Shown here: positions 28,837-50,649 of the stretch, in pieces
How the letters are laid out: each line of letters opens with the position of its first letter
Position numbering within the stretch: position 1 is the stretch's first letter
The notes under the pieces: generated by a model
Seen by the model: only the letters and a program-made list of their open reading frames with translations
Told to the model about the DNA's origin: nothing
Database searches by the model: none
Translations under genes and position numbers: made by a program
Source of the DNA: Acidimicrobiales bacterium
GTDB lineage: Bacteria; Actinomycetota; Acidimicrobiia; Acidimicrobiales; Iamiaceae
NCBI GenBank assembly: GCA_025463985.1
Contig: JAODBM010000002.1
Coordinates: 124,001-188,000, forward strand
DNA length: 64,000 nt
Direction: 5' to 3'

Positions 28837-29849
28837 CGGCCGTAGTCCGTCGACGCGGCCAGGTCGGCGGCGGCCTGCATCAGGTCGAGGACGACCGGCC
28901 CGAACGCCAGGAGCTTCTCGTCGTTCCCGGCCCGCTGGAAGCCCTGCTCGAGCACCACCGCCAGCTTCCACTTGGCCAAGACGCAGTAGTAGTCGATGTC
29001 GTCGACCTGCCGGCCCGACACCTCGGCGTATCGATCGAGCATCTGCTCGCGCGACGGCATGCCCTTCATGTCCACGTAGCTGAAGGCATCGTCGACCACG
29101 TTCGTGTCCTCGGGCCACGGGTGCATGACCCAGCCGAGGTCGAGCTTCGGATCGCCGACCGTGCCCATCTCCCAGTCGACGATCGCGGCCAGCCGCGCCG
29201 GCCCGCCGTGCTCGTACATGACGTTGGCGAACTGGTAGTCGCCGTGCATGAGCCCGGGCACGAAGTCGATCGGCTTGTGGGCCCGCAGCCAGGCGGACGC
29301 GTCGTCGAAGCCGGGCAGCTCCCGGCCCTTGATCCGCTCGAGGAACGCCGTCCAGCGGTCGACCTGGCGCTCGTGGAAGCCGTCGGGCCGTCCGAGGTCG
29401 TGCAGGCCCTTGGCCTGCCAGTCGACCTTCGACAGCAGCGCGATGCCGTCGACGAGCTGGTACGCGAGCCCGGCGCGGGCGTCGAGATCAGCGTCGAACG
29501 GCGCCGGCCAGCCGTCGGTGTTCATCGGGGACCAGCCGTCGACGTACCCCATGATGTAGAAGGACCGGCCGAGCACCGACCCGTCCTCGCAGGACGCGAT
29601 CGCGGCCGTGTGCGGCACGTCCGTCCCGTCGAGCGCCTCGATGATGCGCCACTCGCGCATGATCCCGGCGTCGCGGGACGCGGGGGCGCCGGCCGGCGGC
29701 ATGCGCAGCGCGCCGTGCAGGTCGCCGCGGCGGACCTCGAAGATCTCGTTCTGCGTGCCCCCCGAGATGAAGGTGGCCTCCAGCGGCTCGCCCGCCCCCG
29801 GGAGGCCCCGGTCGTCCATCCAGGCCGCGAGTCGGTCGGTGTCGATCAC
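28833..29849 (-). CDS. Phosphotransferase-family protein (APH-like), typical ACAD partner
   Basis: GTG 29849; ...FVPGLMHGDYQFANVMYEHGGPARLAAIVDWEMGTVGDPKLDLGWVM; overlaps ACAD gene. Confidence 0.88.
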   Translation of the reverse strand: MIDTDRLAAWMDDRGLPGAGEPLEATFISGGTQNEIFEVRRGDLHGALRMPPAGAPASRDAGIMREWRIIEALDGTDVPHTAAIASCEDGSVLGRSFYIMGYVDGWSPMNTDGWPAPFDADLDARAGLAYQLVDGIALLSKVDWQAKGLHDLGRPDGFHERQVDRWTAFLERIKGRELPGFDDASAWLRAHKPIDFVPGLMHGDYQFANVMYEHGGPARLAAIVDWEMGTVGDPKLDLGWVMHPWPEDTNVVDDAFSYVDMKGMPSREQMLDRYAEVSGRQVDDIDYYCVLAKWKLAVVLEQGFQRAGNDEKLLAFGPVVLDLMQAAADLAASTDYGR

Positions 29850-31153
29850 AGGTTCCCCACTTCCAGCTCGAGGTGGTCGGCGAACTTGGCCTTGGCGGCG
29901 GCGAGCCGCTTCGGGAGGTGCCCGGTCGGCCAGAGGTCGTCGGTCGGCTTGTAGTCGCGGAGGACCTGGCGGGCGACGGTCATCTTGTGGACCTCGGTCG
30001 GGCCGTCGGCCAGGCCCATGACGCTGGCGCCGAGGAGCATCTGGTGGAACGGCATCTCGTTGCTGACCCCGAGCGCACCGTGGATCTGGATCGCCCGCCA
30101 CGCGATGTCGTGCAGCACGCCGGGCATCAGCACCTTCACCGCGGCGATGTCCTTGCGGACCTTGCGGTAGTCGTTGTGCTTGTCGATCGTCCACGCCGTG
30201 TAGAGCACGAACATCCGGAACTGCGTGAGCTGGGCGTAGGAGTCGGCGATGAAGCCCTGCACGAACTGCTTGTCGGCCAGGATGCCGTCCTTCGTCTCGC
30301 GGCTGAGGGCCCGCTCGCACATCATGTCGAGCGCCTTGCCGGCCAGGCCGATCGTGCGCATCGCGTGGTGGATGCGACCGCCACCGAGACGGGTCTGGGC
30401 GATGGCGAACGCCTGGCCCTCGCCGCCGAGCAGGCCCTCGGCCGGTACTCGCACGTTCTCGTAGTGGATCAGGGCGTGCGAGCCCTCGCCGAGCGGCTCG
30501 CCGCCGAGGCCGACGTTGCGCACGATGTTGACCCCCGGCGTGTCGCTCGGGACCAGGAACATCGACATGCCCTGGTACGCGCTGATCTCCGGGTTCGTCA
30601 CCGCCATCACGATGAGGAACGCGGCGGTCGGGGCGTTCGACGAGAAGTACTTCCACCCGTTGATCACCCACTCGTCGCCGTCGCGCTCGGCGCGGGTCTT
30701 GAACAGCGTCGGGTCGGAGCCACCGTGCGGCTCGGTCATCGAGTAGCACGAGAACAGCTCGCCGTCGAGCAGCGGCCGCAGGTAGCGCTCCTTCTGCTCG
30801 GGCGTGCCGTAGTGGGCGATGATCTCGGCGTTGCCGGTGTCGGGCGCCTGGCAGCCGAAGATGATCGGCGCCCACGACGAGCGGCCGAGGATCTCGTTCA
30901 GCAGCGACAGCTTGAGCTGGCCGTAGCCCTCACCGCCGAGCTCGGGGCCGAGGTGCGTGGCCCACAGCTTCTGGCGCCGGACCTCCGCCTTCAGCGGGTC
31001 GATGATCGTGCGGAGCTCGTCGCTGGGCGGGGTGAACTCCAGCCCGGGCCACAGCATGTCGAGCGGCTCGACCTCCTCCCGCACGAGCGCCGCCGCCCAG
31101 TCCAGCTTCTCCTGGAGCTCGGGCTCGGTCTCGAAGTCCCACGCCATGTGCAT
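29846..31153 (-). CDS. Acyl-CoA dehydrogenase
   Basis: ...FSCYSMTEPHGGSDPTLFKTRAERDGDEWVINGWKYFSSNA...; alternative start ATG 31147. Confidence 0.9.
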   Translation of the reverse strand: MHMAWDFETEPELQEKLDWAAALVREEVEPLDMLWPGLEFTPPSDELRTIIDPLKAEVRRQKLWATHLGPELGGEGYGQLKLSLLNEILGRSSWAPIIFGCQAPDTGNAEIIAHYGTPEQKERYLRPLLDGELFSCYSMTEPHGGSDPTLFKTRAERDGDEWVINGWKYFSSNAPTAAFLIVMAVTNPEISAYQGMSMFLVPSDTPGVNIVRNVGLGGEPLGEGSHALIHYENVRVPAEGLLGGEGQAFAIAQTRLGGGRIHHAMRTIGLAGKALDMMCERALSRETKDGILADKQFVQGFIADSYAQLTQFRMFVLYTAWTIDKHNDYRKVRKDIAAVKVLMPGVLHDIAWRAIQIHGALGVSNEMPFHQMLLGASVMGLADGPTEVHKMTVARQVLRDYKPTDDLWPTGHLPKRLAAAKAKFADHLELEVGNL

Positions 31154-31170
31154 CCCCCCTTGGTCCGCTC

Positions 31171-31183
31171 AGAATAACATTCT
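31171..31183. promoter_or_regulatory. Candidate operator: perfect 5-bp-arm dyad AGAAT-AAC-ATTCT between divergent ACAD and TetR genes
   Basis: AT-rich dyad read directly, located between starts at 31153 (-) and 31236 (+). Confidence 0.5.
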
Positions 31184-31235
31184 GGATCTAAAGAATCTAG
31201 TTTTCTGTCGGCAGAACGAGCAGTAGGCTGCCGCT

Positions 31236-31877
31236 GTGGAACCGACGACCCCCGAGCCGCGGGAAGACGTCGCCGAGCGCATCGCCCGCCGCACCCTGGC
31301 GAGCCGTGCCCCCGACTATCCGGGCGAGGTCCGGCGCCTCCTCGACGCCGGCCGAGAGGTCATCCGCCGCTGCGGCACCGAGGCGCGGCCGCGGGTGGCC
31401 GACATCGTGGCCGCCGCCGGGCTGTCGAACGACGCCTTCTACCGGCACTTCACGTCGAAGGACGCCCTCGTCGCCGCCATCCTCGAAGACGGCACCGAGC
31501 GGCTGCGCAGCTACCTCGACCACCAGATGGCGAAGGAGGTGACCCCGGAGGGCAAGCTGCGCCGCTGGGTCGAGGGGGTGCTGTCGCAGGCGGCCGACGA
31601 CGACGTGGCTGCCACCACGCTGGCCGTGCTGTGGAACGCGGACGGTCTCGCCGACGGTCCGGCCGCGGCTCGCGCCCCGCTGGCCACGCTCCTGCACCAG
31701 CCCTTTGCCGCCCTGGGCAGCGTCAACCCCGAGCTCGACGCCTCGCTCGCCGGCCATTGCGTCATCGGTGCCCTCAGCGACTTCCTGTGGCAGCGCTCCC
31801 GGCCGACCCGCGAGGAGATCGAGCACGTGGTCGCCTTCTGCCTCGCCGCGGTGCGCCCGCGAAACCCGAGGCAATAG
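31236..31877 (+). CDS. TetR-family transcriptional regulator
   Basis: ...RPRVADIVAAAGLSNDAFYRHFTSKDALVAAILEDG... Confidence 0.87.
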   Translation: MEPTTPEPREDVAERIARRTLASRAPDYPGEVRRLLDAGREVIRRCGTEARPRVADIVAAAGLSNDAFYRHFTSKDALVAAILEDGTERLRSYLDHQMAKEVTPEGKLRRWVEGVLSQAADDDVAATTLAVLWNADGLADGPAAARAPLATLLHQPFAALGSVNPELDASLAGHCVIGALSDFLWQRSRPTREEIEHVVAFCLAAVRPRNPRQ

Positions 31878-32029
31878 CCCACCGGTTCGGGCGGTCATTG
31901 CCTCGGCTTTTCCGCGAAGGCAATAGCCCCGTCTCGGGCCGTCATTGCCTCGACGCGAAACCCGAGGCAATAGCCCACCGGTTCGGGCCGTCATTGCCTC
32001 GGGTTTTCCGCGAAGGCAATAGCCCCCCG
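31858..32029. repeat. Palindromic repeat array: four ~47-49 nt units with GGCAATAGCCC...GTCATTGCC, forming a 96-nt higher-order direct repeat
   Basis: AGGCAATAGCCC begins at 31869, 31918, 31965, 32014; CGCGAAACCCGAGGCAATAGCCCACCGGTTCGGGC at 31858 and 31954 (period 96) with near-identical continuation. Confidence 0.93.
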
Positions 32030-32071
32030 TCACGACGAGACGCCCGGGCTCGAGAGCCGTTGGCTTGCTAC

Positions 32072-32132: not shown

Positions 32133-33386
32133 ATGGCCACTTCCCGTCCGCCAGAACGGCCGACCCACCTGCGCAGCGCGCGCATGCTCGACGTGGTGAA
32201 GGGCGAGCTGGTCGAGCCCGGTGACCTCTTGATCGAGGGCGAGCGGATCGTCGAGGTCGCGCCCGCGTCGGTGCCGGCGGATGCCCAGGTGCTCGACCTG
32301 GGCGACGTCACCCTGCTCCCCGGCCTCATGGACATGGAGGTCAACCTCCTGCTCGGAGGGCCGAACCACTCCAGCCCCCTCACCGCGGTGCAGGACGACC
32401 CGGCCATCCGCACGCTGCGGGCCGTGGCCAACGCGCGACGCACGCTGCGGTCCGGGTTCACGACGGTGCGGAACCTCGGGCTCTTCATCCAGACCGGCGG
32501 GCTGCTGCTCGACGTCGCCCTCATGAAGGCGATCGACTTCGGCTGGATCGACGGCCCGCGGATCGTGCCTGCCGGGCACGCCATCTGCCCGACCGGTGGC
32601 CACCTCGACCCCACGATGTTCCAGGCGTTCGCGCCCCACATCATGCCGCTCACCGTGGAAGAGGGCATCGCCAACGGCGTGTCCGAGGTGCGCAAGGCCG
32701 TCCGCTACCAGATCAAGCACGGGGCCAAGCTCATCAAGGTCTGCGCCTCGGGCGGCGTGATGTCCCACACCGGGCCGGCCGGCGCGCAGCAGTACTCCGA
32801 CGAGGAGCTCGCGGCCATCGCCGACGAGGCCCACCGCGCCGGCCTCAAGGTGGCCGCGCACGCGCACGGCGACGACGGCATCCGCGCCGCGATCGAGGCG
32901 GGGATCGACTGCATCGAGCACGGCTCGCTCATGAGCGACGAGACCCTCACGCTGATGATCGAGACCGACACGTTCCTCGTCGCCACCACCTACCTCGCCG
33001 ACGGCATGGACACGTCGCACGCCCCGCCCGAGCTGCAGGCCAAGGCGGCCGAGGTGTTCCCGCGGGCCCGGGCCACGATCAGCAAGGCCATCGAGCGCGG
33101 GGCCCGCATCGCCTGCGGCACCGACGCGCCGGCCATCCCCCACGGCCGCAACGCCAAGGAGCTGATCGCCCTCGTCGACCGGGGCATGACGCCGCTGCAG
33201 GCCATCCGCTCTGCGACGACCGTGTCGGCCGAGCTCATCGACGTCGACGACCGCGGCCGGCTCGAGGCCGGCCTGCTCGCCGACGTGATCGCCGTGGCTG
33301 GCAACCCGCTCGCCGACATCACGATGACCGAGCAGGTGCGGTTCGTGATGAAGGGCGGCAAGGTCTACCGCCACGAGCACGGCTAG
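32133..33386 (+). CDS. Amidohydrolase family protein (imidazolonepropionase-like / Xaa-Pro dipeptidase-type)
   Basis: VLDLGDVTLLPGLMDMEVNLL...GLKVAAHAHGDDGIRAAIEAGIDCIEHGSLMSDE...IACGTDAPAIPHGRNAKEL. Confidence 0.9.
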   Translation: MATSRPPERPTHLRSARMLDVVKGELVEPGDLLIEGERIVEVAPASVPADAQVLDLGDVTLLPGLMDMEVNLLLGGPNHSSPLTAVQDDPAIRTLRAVANARRTLRSGFTTVRNLGLFIQTGGLLLDVALMKAIDFGWIDGPRIVPAGHAICPTGGHLDPTMFQAFAPHIMPLTVEEGIANGVSEVRKAVRYQIKHGAKLIKVCASGGVMSHTGPAGAQQYSDEELAAIADEAHRAGLKVAAHAHGDDGIRAAIEAGIDCIEHGSLMSDETLTLMIETDTFLVATTYLADGMDTSHAPPELQAKAAEVFPRARATISKAIERGARIACGTDAPAIPHGRNAKELIALVDRGMTPLQAIRSATTVSAELIDVDDRGRLEAGLLADVIAVAGNPLADITMTEQVRFVMKGGKVYRHEHG

Positions 33387-34081
33387 CGCAGCGAGACGCC
33401 GTTCAGGATCAGGTCCCAGAGCTCTTCGGCGGGATCGACGGCGCTGCGCTTGAGCGGCGTGCCGATGATCGTGGCCGAGAAGGCGTTGAACATGATCGCC
33501 TCGAGCACGATGCCGGCGATCGGGCCGTGGCGCAGGCCGGGCCGGATGGCGCCGGCGGCCCCGGCCTCGTCGAGCACCTCACCGAAGAGCGTGACGATCG
33601 GCGCGAACGCCCGGGCTGCTTCGGCCGGATGGCTCGTGAGGAGCTGTTGGGCGAAGTCGACCATCATGACGGGAGCCGCCGTGGCCTTCTTGGCCGCCTT
33701 GCCGCCGCGGCTCGGGCGGCACAGGCGGTAGTACTCGACCACGAAGCGATGGACCCGCTCGACGGGGTCTTCCTCTTCGGTGACCTTCTTCCCGACGAAC
33801 TCGGCAGTCCAGCGGACGGACTCCTCGAACAAGGCGAGCAGCAGCTCGTGCTTGCCGCCGAAGTACTGGTAGAAGGTGCGCAGCGACTGGCCGGAGCGCT
33901 CGACGACCTCTTGGACCGTGAAGTCCTTGCCGGTCTCGCTGTCGTTCATCAGCTCGACGGCGGCGTCGAGGAAGCGCTGGACGCGCTTCTCGGCACGCGT
34001 CCGCGCCGAGCCCAACGACCGTGCCACCGCCTGTTCACGCCAGCTGGCCGCCGACGGGTCGGCGGGCTCGTTCGTCGTCAC
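33383..34081 (-). CDS. TetR-family transcriptional regulator
   Basis: ...RVQRFLDAAVELMNDSETGKDFTVQEVVERSGQSLRTFYQYFGGKHELLLALFEE... Confidence 0.88.
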   Translation of the reverse strand: MTTNEPADPSAASWREQAVARSLGSARTRAEKRVQRFLDAAVELMNDSETGKDFTVQEVVERSGQSLRTFYQYFGGKHELLLALFEESVRWTAEFVGKKVTEEEDPVERVHRFVVEYYRLCRPSRGGKAAKKATAAPVMMVDFAQQLLTSHPAEAARAFAPIVTLFGEVLDEAGAAGAIRPGLRHGPIAGIVLEAIMFNAFSATIIGTPLKRSAVDPAEELWDLILNGVSLR

Positions 34082-42413: not shown

Positions 42414-43516
42414 TCGACGGCGCCGACCTCGAGCTCTTCACCCGCAGCCTGCGCCATGCCACCGACAGCAGCACGGGAGCCGCGCTCGACGCCGCCCTCG
42501 ACGACCTCGGCTGGCCGGACGCGCTCGCCGACGACCCGCGCGCCGCCGTCTCGATCCTGTTCGGCCTCCAAGGCGGGGCCAACGCGACCTCGTCCGCCCT
42601 CGACCACGTGCTCCTCGCCGCCCTCGCCCCCCTCACCCCCTTCGCCCCCCTCGAACTGGGCGGAAGCCCGGTCGCCCCAGCAACCGCCATCCCACCCGCC
42701 TCCAACCCCCTCGAACTGGGCGGAAACCCGGTCGCCCCAGCAACCGCCATCCCGCCCAGTTCAGGCGTGGGGGTGGGCGCGGGCGTGGGGGTGGTGCTGC
42801 CGGCGCTTGGCGGGTGGCACCCGCCAGGGGACCTGCGCGGTGGCCGCTTGGCCGTGGCCGGACTCGGCACCGCCGGCCTCGCGCACCGCGCGACGGCCAT
42901 CGTGGTCGCCCGCGCCGGCGACAAGACCGTCGCCGTCGCGGTGCCCACCGCGAGCCTCACGCTCCGTGCGGTGCAGGGCGTCGACCCAGAGCTCGGCCTA
43001 ATCGAGGTGACGGCCGACGGCCTCATCGTGGCGGTCGACCCCGACGCCGACCCCCTGACCGGTTGGACCAACGCCGTGGCCCTCGCCCAGGTCGCCCTCG
43101 GGCACGAGCTGGTGGGCGCGTCGCGCACGATGCTCGACCTCGCCCGCATCCATGCCCTCGAACGGGTCCAGTTCGGCCGGCCGATCAGCGCCTTCCAAGC
43201 CGTCCGTCACCGGCTGGCCGAGACCCTGGTCGCCATCGAGATGGCCGAGGCCCTGCTCGACGCCGCCTGGCTCGACCAGTCACCGCAGACCGCGGCCATG
43301 GCGAAGGCGCTGGCCGGCCGCGGCGCGCGCACCGCGGCCCGCCACTGCCAACAGGTGCTGGCCGGCATCGGCTTCACCACCGAGCACCCGCTCCACCGGT
43401 ACGTCCGGCGGATCCTCGTGCTCGACCAGCTGTACGGCGCCGCCCAGTCCCTCACCGCCGCGCTCGGCACCGAGCTCATCGCCACCCGCCAGCTCCCACC
43501 CCTGCTCCCCCTCTGA
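42410..43516 (+). CDS. Acyl-CoA dehydrogenase (beta-type of pair) containing in-frame repeat insertion
   Basis: GTG 42410 overlaps previous stop; C-terminal ACAD fold ...YDLARIHALERVQFGRPISAFQAVRHRLAETLVAIEMAEALLDAAW... (41283 partner); insert PLELGGSPVAPATAIPPASNPLELGGNPVAPATAIPPSSG. Confidence 0.87.
   Translation: MIDGADLELFTRSLRHATDSSTGAALDAALDDLGWPDALADDPRAAVSILFGLQGGANATSSALDHVLLAALAPLTPFAPLELGGSPVAPATAIPPASNPLELGGNPVAPATAIPPSSGVGVGAGVGVVLPALGGWHPPGDLRGGRLAVAGLGTAGLAHRATAIVVARAGDKTVAVAVPTASLTLRAVQGVDPELGLIEVTADGLIVAVDPDADPLTGWTNAVALAQVALGHELVGASRTMLDLARIHALERVQFGRPISAFQAVRHRLAETLVAIEMAEALLDAAWLDQSPQTAAMAKALAGRGARTAARHCQQVLAGIGFTTEHPLHRYVRRILVLDQLYGAAQSLTAALGTELIATRQLPPLLPL
42648..42762. 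repeat. 60-nt-period tandem repeat with palindromic arms (CGAACTGGGCGG...CCGCCCAGTTC) inside the ACAD coding sequence
   Basis: CTCGAACTGGGCGGAA[G/A]CCCGGTCGCCCCAGCAACCGCCATCCC at about 42650 and 42710 (one mismatch); right arm CCGCCCAGTTC at 42752-42762. Confidence 0.95.
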
Positions 43517-50597: not shown

Positions 50598-50649
50598 CGA
50601 ACTGGGCGCGACTGCGGTCGCCAGGGCGACCGAGTCCCCGCCCAGTTCG
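50598..50649. repeat. Palindromic element between convergent genes: CGAACTGGGCG ... CGGTCGCC-AG-GGCGACCG ... CGCCCAGTTCG
   Basis: Arms 50598-50608/50639-50649, GACT/AGTC 50610-50613/50633-50636, core 50615-50622/50625-50632. Confidence 0.95.

Follow-up and report, generated by a model that had tools for sequence, protein, structure and literature searches.

A TetR-like regulator gene (31236..31877, +) in a 64-kb stretch of DNA from an uncultured member of the Acidimicrobiales (hereafter the window, 64,000 nucleotides in full) runs at its 3' end into a tandem array of palindromes. The question raised by this locus is whether the array is a private duplication at one gene end or a copy of a repeat family that spreads in the genome and, if the latter, what kind of family it is and why its copies lie where genes end.

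Results

The array has a composite layout. The AGGCAATAGCCC starts fall exactly at 31869, 31918, 31965 and 32014, with the alternating spacings of 49, 47 and 49 nt given in the original prediction, and the proposed 96-nt higher-order repeat was reproduced, with 97% identity between 31858-31930 and 31954-32026 (73 nt). Across the 64-kb window, GGCAATAGC had no match outside the array. Four like palindromic units had been proposed; instead, two types alternate at 31861-32026 in the order A–B–A–half-B, A being a 51-nt dyad and B sharing its arms but varying in the middle. The first A unit (31861..31911; AAACCCGAGGCAAT..ATTGCCTCGGcTTT) is followed by a B unit (31918..31950) with the A arms, another core and 13- to 14-nt linkers on either side, by a second A unit (31957..32007) 96 nt from the first, and by a second B unit cut to its left arm (32014..32026). 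Because the units are near-symmetric, their orientation is hard to assign. Counted from the AGGCAATAGCCC starts, the first and third units are complete dyads of 35 nt with the core CCCACCGGTTCGGGC, the second is a dyad of 33 nt with the core CCCCGTCTCGGGCC and the fourth is the left arm alone, so that the alternation of 49 and 47 nt follows from 35 + 14 and 33 + 14 (dyad plus linker). As predicted, the array begins in the last TetR codons, the final NPRQ and the stop codon TAG (31875-31877) corresponding to A-unit nt 3-17, and an amidohydrolase gene (32133..33386, +) lies downstream of it. On the two sides of the array, the divergent acyl-CoA dehydrogenase and TetR pair (29846-31877) is kept in genomes G162, G134, G050 and G143, and the amidohydrolase gene and a convergent second TetR gene (32133-34081) are kept in the Acidimicrobiia metagenome-assembled genomes (MAGs) L146, L148, L149, L163 and L171.

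Matches to the array in its source genome, a 4.19-Mb MAG of 238 contigs that is 83% complete, exceed chance. BLAST returned 76 matched pieces, with strong matches at about 30 sites and E values as low as 1e-36, and a search with the arm gave 106 matches versus 10 with a reversed-pattern control. A census using a covariance model from 45 units and a weight matrix counted 56 A units, grouped in 35 arrays that lie between genes or overlap gene ends; the repeat, which might have proved to be present at this locus alone, thus occurs at about 35 sites, as high-copy, dispersed, extragenic palindromes like REPs in general. The A consensus is close to AAACCCGAGGCAATGACCCACCG-NTC-CGGTGGGTCATTGCCTCGGGTTT, from which the window copies differ in the middle, and the dyad is flanked by AAA and TTT at 82-83% per base in a window of 71% G+C. 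The A-B-A layout is found in 18 arrays, which are most of the multi-unit ones, and combines two palindromic unit types into a mosaic at set spacing, as in BIMEs, while about half of the sites hold a single A unit, a dyad with a 3-nt loop. The B units retain the arms, and their middles are unrelated between sites. Over 39 nt, A units from one array differ at 5.8 positions and those from different arrays at 9.0, and the nearest A unit is in the same array for only 21 of 40.

The idea that the array represents a separate repeat family held, and its alternative, a third arm or core type of the other palindromes in the window, did not: the units at 50598..50649 (GAACTGGGCG..CCGCCCAGTTC, between convergent genes) and 42708..42762 belong to a second, unrelated family in the same genome. 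Its 52-nt units (GAACTGGGCGG..CCGCCCAGTTC) occur at about 40 sites, likewise at gene ends, with tandem spacings mostly of 61-63 nt and a few of 69-74 nt, and 9 of the 20 arrays examined lie between convergent genes.

The position of the A family was assessed on gene calls from a simple codon model, with gene names read by eye and not by family search. Among the 35 gaps that hold arrays, 16 are convergent, 15 tandem and 2 divergent (convergent versus divergent, P = 7e-4), and 2 are contig ends; the median distance is 11 nt on the stop-codon side and 64.5 nt on the start side (P = 4e-8). The arrays are thus enriched at ORF 3' ends and rare in divergent gaps, as is typical of REPs. At six genes, TetR included, A-unit nt 15-17 are the stop codon, which thus lies inside the repeat, and the tails read NPRQ (TetR), DPRQ (NUDIX-like), EPRQ, DQRQ (epimerase-like), SSRQ and NPSQ. 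The NUDIX protein ends here in LAGRTVPLSAGADPRQ and its orthologues in LAGRTVPLPADG.., and TetR orthologues elsewhere in the order lack the repeat and have C termini that differ from the NPRQ tail, which agrees with the suggestion that the TetR end was formed by the repeat and fits insertion. At another locus (L058:2072-2140), a gene crosses an A unit in a different frame and stops at a TAG in the B unit, with the tail ..SRGNSAPNRSVIASAFPGRQ.

Relatives were searched both for the units and for the sites. No convincing unit was found in 23 other genomes of the bacterial family, the best match (E = 2e-5) scoring 26.7 bits where full units of the source genome score 38-75 bits. A strict A pattern, which recovers 19 of the 56 own units in 17 arrays, had no match in 84,980 GTDB species or in viral contigs, sets from which the source genome may have been left out. 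For the sites, C-terminal pieces of the flanking genes were searched in the bacterial family and the neighborhoods were compared. Five convergent gene pairs recur, and at four of them the gaps are -20 to 54 nt in several relatives versus 130-299 nt here: CofE and epimerase (167 nt here; 6, 11, 33 and 54 nt in G011, G008, G010 and G001), an upstream gene and a glycerol kinase-like gene (299 nt here; -4, -12, 27, 41, 42 and 45 nt in G009, G011, G010, G007, G013 and G023), enoyl-CoA hydratase-like and YcaQ-like genes (130 nt here; -20, 27 and 38 nt in G010, G002 and G003), and NUDIX and ABC-F genes (136 nt here; -8 nt in G002). Since these relatives leave no room for an array, the gap comparison demonstrates that arrays were gained at gene ends by lineage-specific insertion. 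Gaps are also wide (136-542 nt) in some other relatives, sometimes holding unrelated palindromes, so the ancestral gap length was not uniform. By eye, gene-end slots in G002 (three copies at L294; also L263), G004 (L308) and G019 (L284) hold unrelated palindromes, some in tandem, and G162, from another bacterial family, has a further palindrome family dispersed in its genome, with a copy beside the TetR orthologue (L090:2128-2380). At the window array itself, the relatives of the amidohydrolase gene, the closest of which come mostly from Acidimicrobiia MAGs and also from Streptomyces, do not share this TetR neighbor and therefore allow no full empty-site comparison; the order TetR-array-amidohydrolase was not seen in the relatives examined, and the array possibly marks a synteny break.

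Structure prediction gave -107 kcal/mol for one strand of the window array (31850-32050) versus -79.6 kcal/mol for shuffled sequences (z = -6.6). The pairs of the A dyad showed no compensatory change, and the observed covariation was below that of shuffles, and upkeep of the A hairpin by such change was rejected on this result. The B middle gave a weak signal as a maintained hairpin (mean z = -0.6), pairing of the linkers inside their own array was worse than random, and comparison with Rfam gave no known RNA family, with no match above the gathering score and only two sub-threshold microRNA matches.

Discussion

We consider it likely that the array belongs to a lineage-specific, nonautonomous, REP/BIME-like repeat family that spread into gene 3' ends, was enlarged or homogenized locally, and is kept where it does least harm. 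Such a history may have taken the following course: (i) single A dyads or A-B-A composites would have been copied into gene 3' ends, where the empty sites in relatives show the gain; (ii) arrays would have been enlarged or homogenized by tandem duplication or conversion, to which the closer likeness of A units within arrays points; (iii) copies would persist where they do least harm, just past stop codons, the arm supplying the stop where it enters a gene (GGCAATAG/GGCAATGA); and (iv) the hairpins, once transcribed, would probably terminate or shield the transcripts that arrive from either side. The account presumes copying by an enzyme combined with tolerance at gene ends, and it counts against it that no transposition was observed, that comparison with relatives, which belong to other genera, established no target duplication, and that no mobilizing enzyme was found.

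A RAYT-driven REP was rejected on the failure to find a Y1 (PF01797) transposase gene in the source genome, a result that is not final at 83% completeness; the same search matched in 5 of 14 control genomes. Given this absence, the copying enzyme is probably not a RAYT. REPs are known near the 3' ends of convergent ORFs, where their termini can give the flanking ORF its TAG stop, and CGTC REPs have no dedicated transposase (PMC3733652). Like the GTAG- and CGTC-tagged REPs, A units are dispersed palindromes, mainly in convergent or unidirectional gaps and within about 20 bp of ORF 3' ends, whose termini supply a TAG stop; unlike them, they have a dyad that spans about 51 nt, compared with 20-40 nt in those REPs (PMC3733652), no RAYT/Y1 gene was found, and a 51-column alignment of 45 units shows no unpaired GTAG or CGTC end tag, the ends being AAA..TTT. 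Untagged REP-like families, with those of Mycobacterium tuberculosis and Deinococcus radiodurans among the ones named, await study; they resemble the A family as tagless palindromic repeats, come from other lineages and are likened here by description, not sequence (PMC3733652). The parts of the E. coli BIME account that we draw on (PMC2817692), again compared by description and not by sequence, tell of two unit types combined at regular spacing in composite arrays, as here, and the A family departs from them in its near-symmetric A and B units, B middles unrelated between sites and stepped A-A spacing. By these analogies the A family fits the general REP kind but not the tagged superfamilies. 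A literature search on palindromic repeats in Acidimicrobiia yielded a single REP survey, in which Acidimicrobium ferrooxidans appears only as a row of counts.

The arrays could instead be mainly bidirectional transcription terminators, selected at convergent gene ends, with spread secondary, which we regard as possible but the less probable account. A role of the array as a terminator or mRNA end is possible, and it is made plausible by position, just 3' of stop codons and between convergent genes, and by a stable, strongly folding dyad with A and T tracts on each side (T3-T4 tracts flank the A units). However, a rule-based scan for U-tract terminators found no site in the window array, clear T tracts are missing from the second family, and the lack of compensatory change argues against strong hairpin upkeep; taken with the bare gaps of relatives, in which the same gene pairs overlap or converge at 6 nt, it would weigh against a need for a terminator.

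Less probable again is an origin as MITE-like remnants of an ordinary transposon with the A arms as inverted repeats. Dispersed copies with inverted-repeat arms at otherwise empty sites would suit it, but A dyads also occur singly, closed by a 3-nt loop, in contrast to MITE ends, which enclose an interior, the units form A-B-A tandems, and among the matches listed the half-arm search gave no clear lone-arm group of the sort that would mark IS ends, the case that the original prediction had held open.

The spacing of A units prompts a DNA-level reading. A-A distances are 96-99 nt in 11 arrays and 109, 109, 110, 120, 120, 130 and 139 nt in the others, which deviate by a mean of 1.0 nt from the short-class mean plus a 10.5-nt period (P = 0.0024; with any period of 8-14 nt allowed, P = 0.005, best period 11.1). 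Since the period was sought after inspection of the data and on seven long values, these steps of about 10.5-11 nt are only a hint of a role at the DNA level. Nucleoid proteins or gyrase have been proposed as binders at E. coli BIMEs. By analogy, A dyads might be sites for a protein joining two dyads, with spacing near whole helical turns and conservation in sequence rather than pairing; this we think improbable, given that just seven long arrays bear on it, that about half of the sites hold one A unit and that no such protein is known. Equally improbable in our estimate is a broader version, in which A-B-A would be the working DNA unit, its two dyads held to one helix face by a spacer that varies in whole turns, with a putative non-RAYT enzyme that binds and copies it, and unrelated similar families would compete for gene-end slots in the order. 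A duplication confined to the end of the TetR gene, for which the near-identical 96-nt repeat might speak, is ruled out by dispersal to about 35 sites.

Spread of a lineage-specific family of the REP/BIME kind, which we prefer, would add an uncultured actinobacterial lineage to those known to have palindromic repeats at gene ends, here with neither tags nor a RAYT, and the empty sites in relatives provide direct evidence for insertion. Different palindromes occupy the corresponding slots in relatives, so that whether such repeats are mobile parasites or useful terminators becomes a question that can be tested by comparison.
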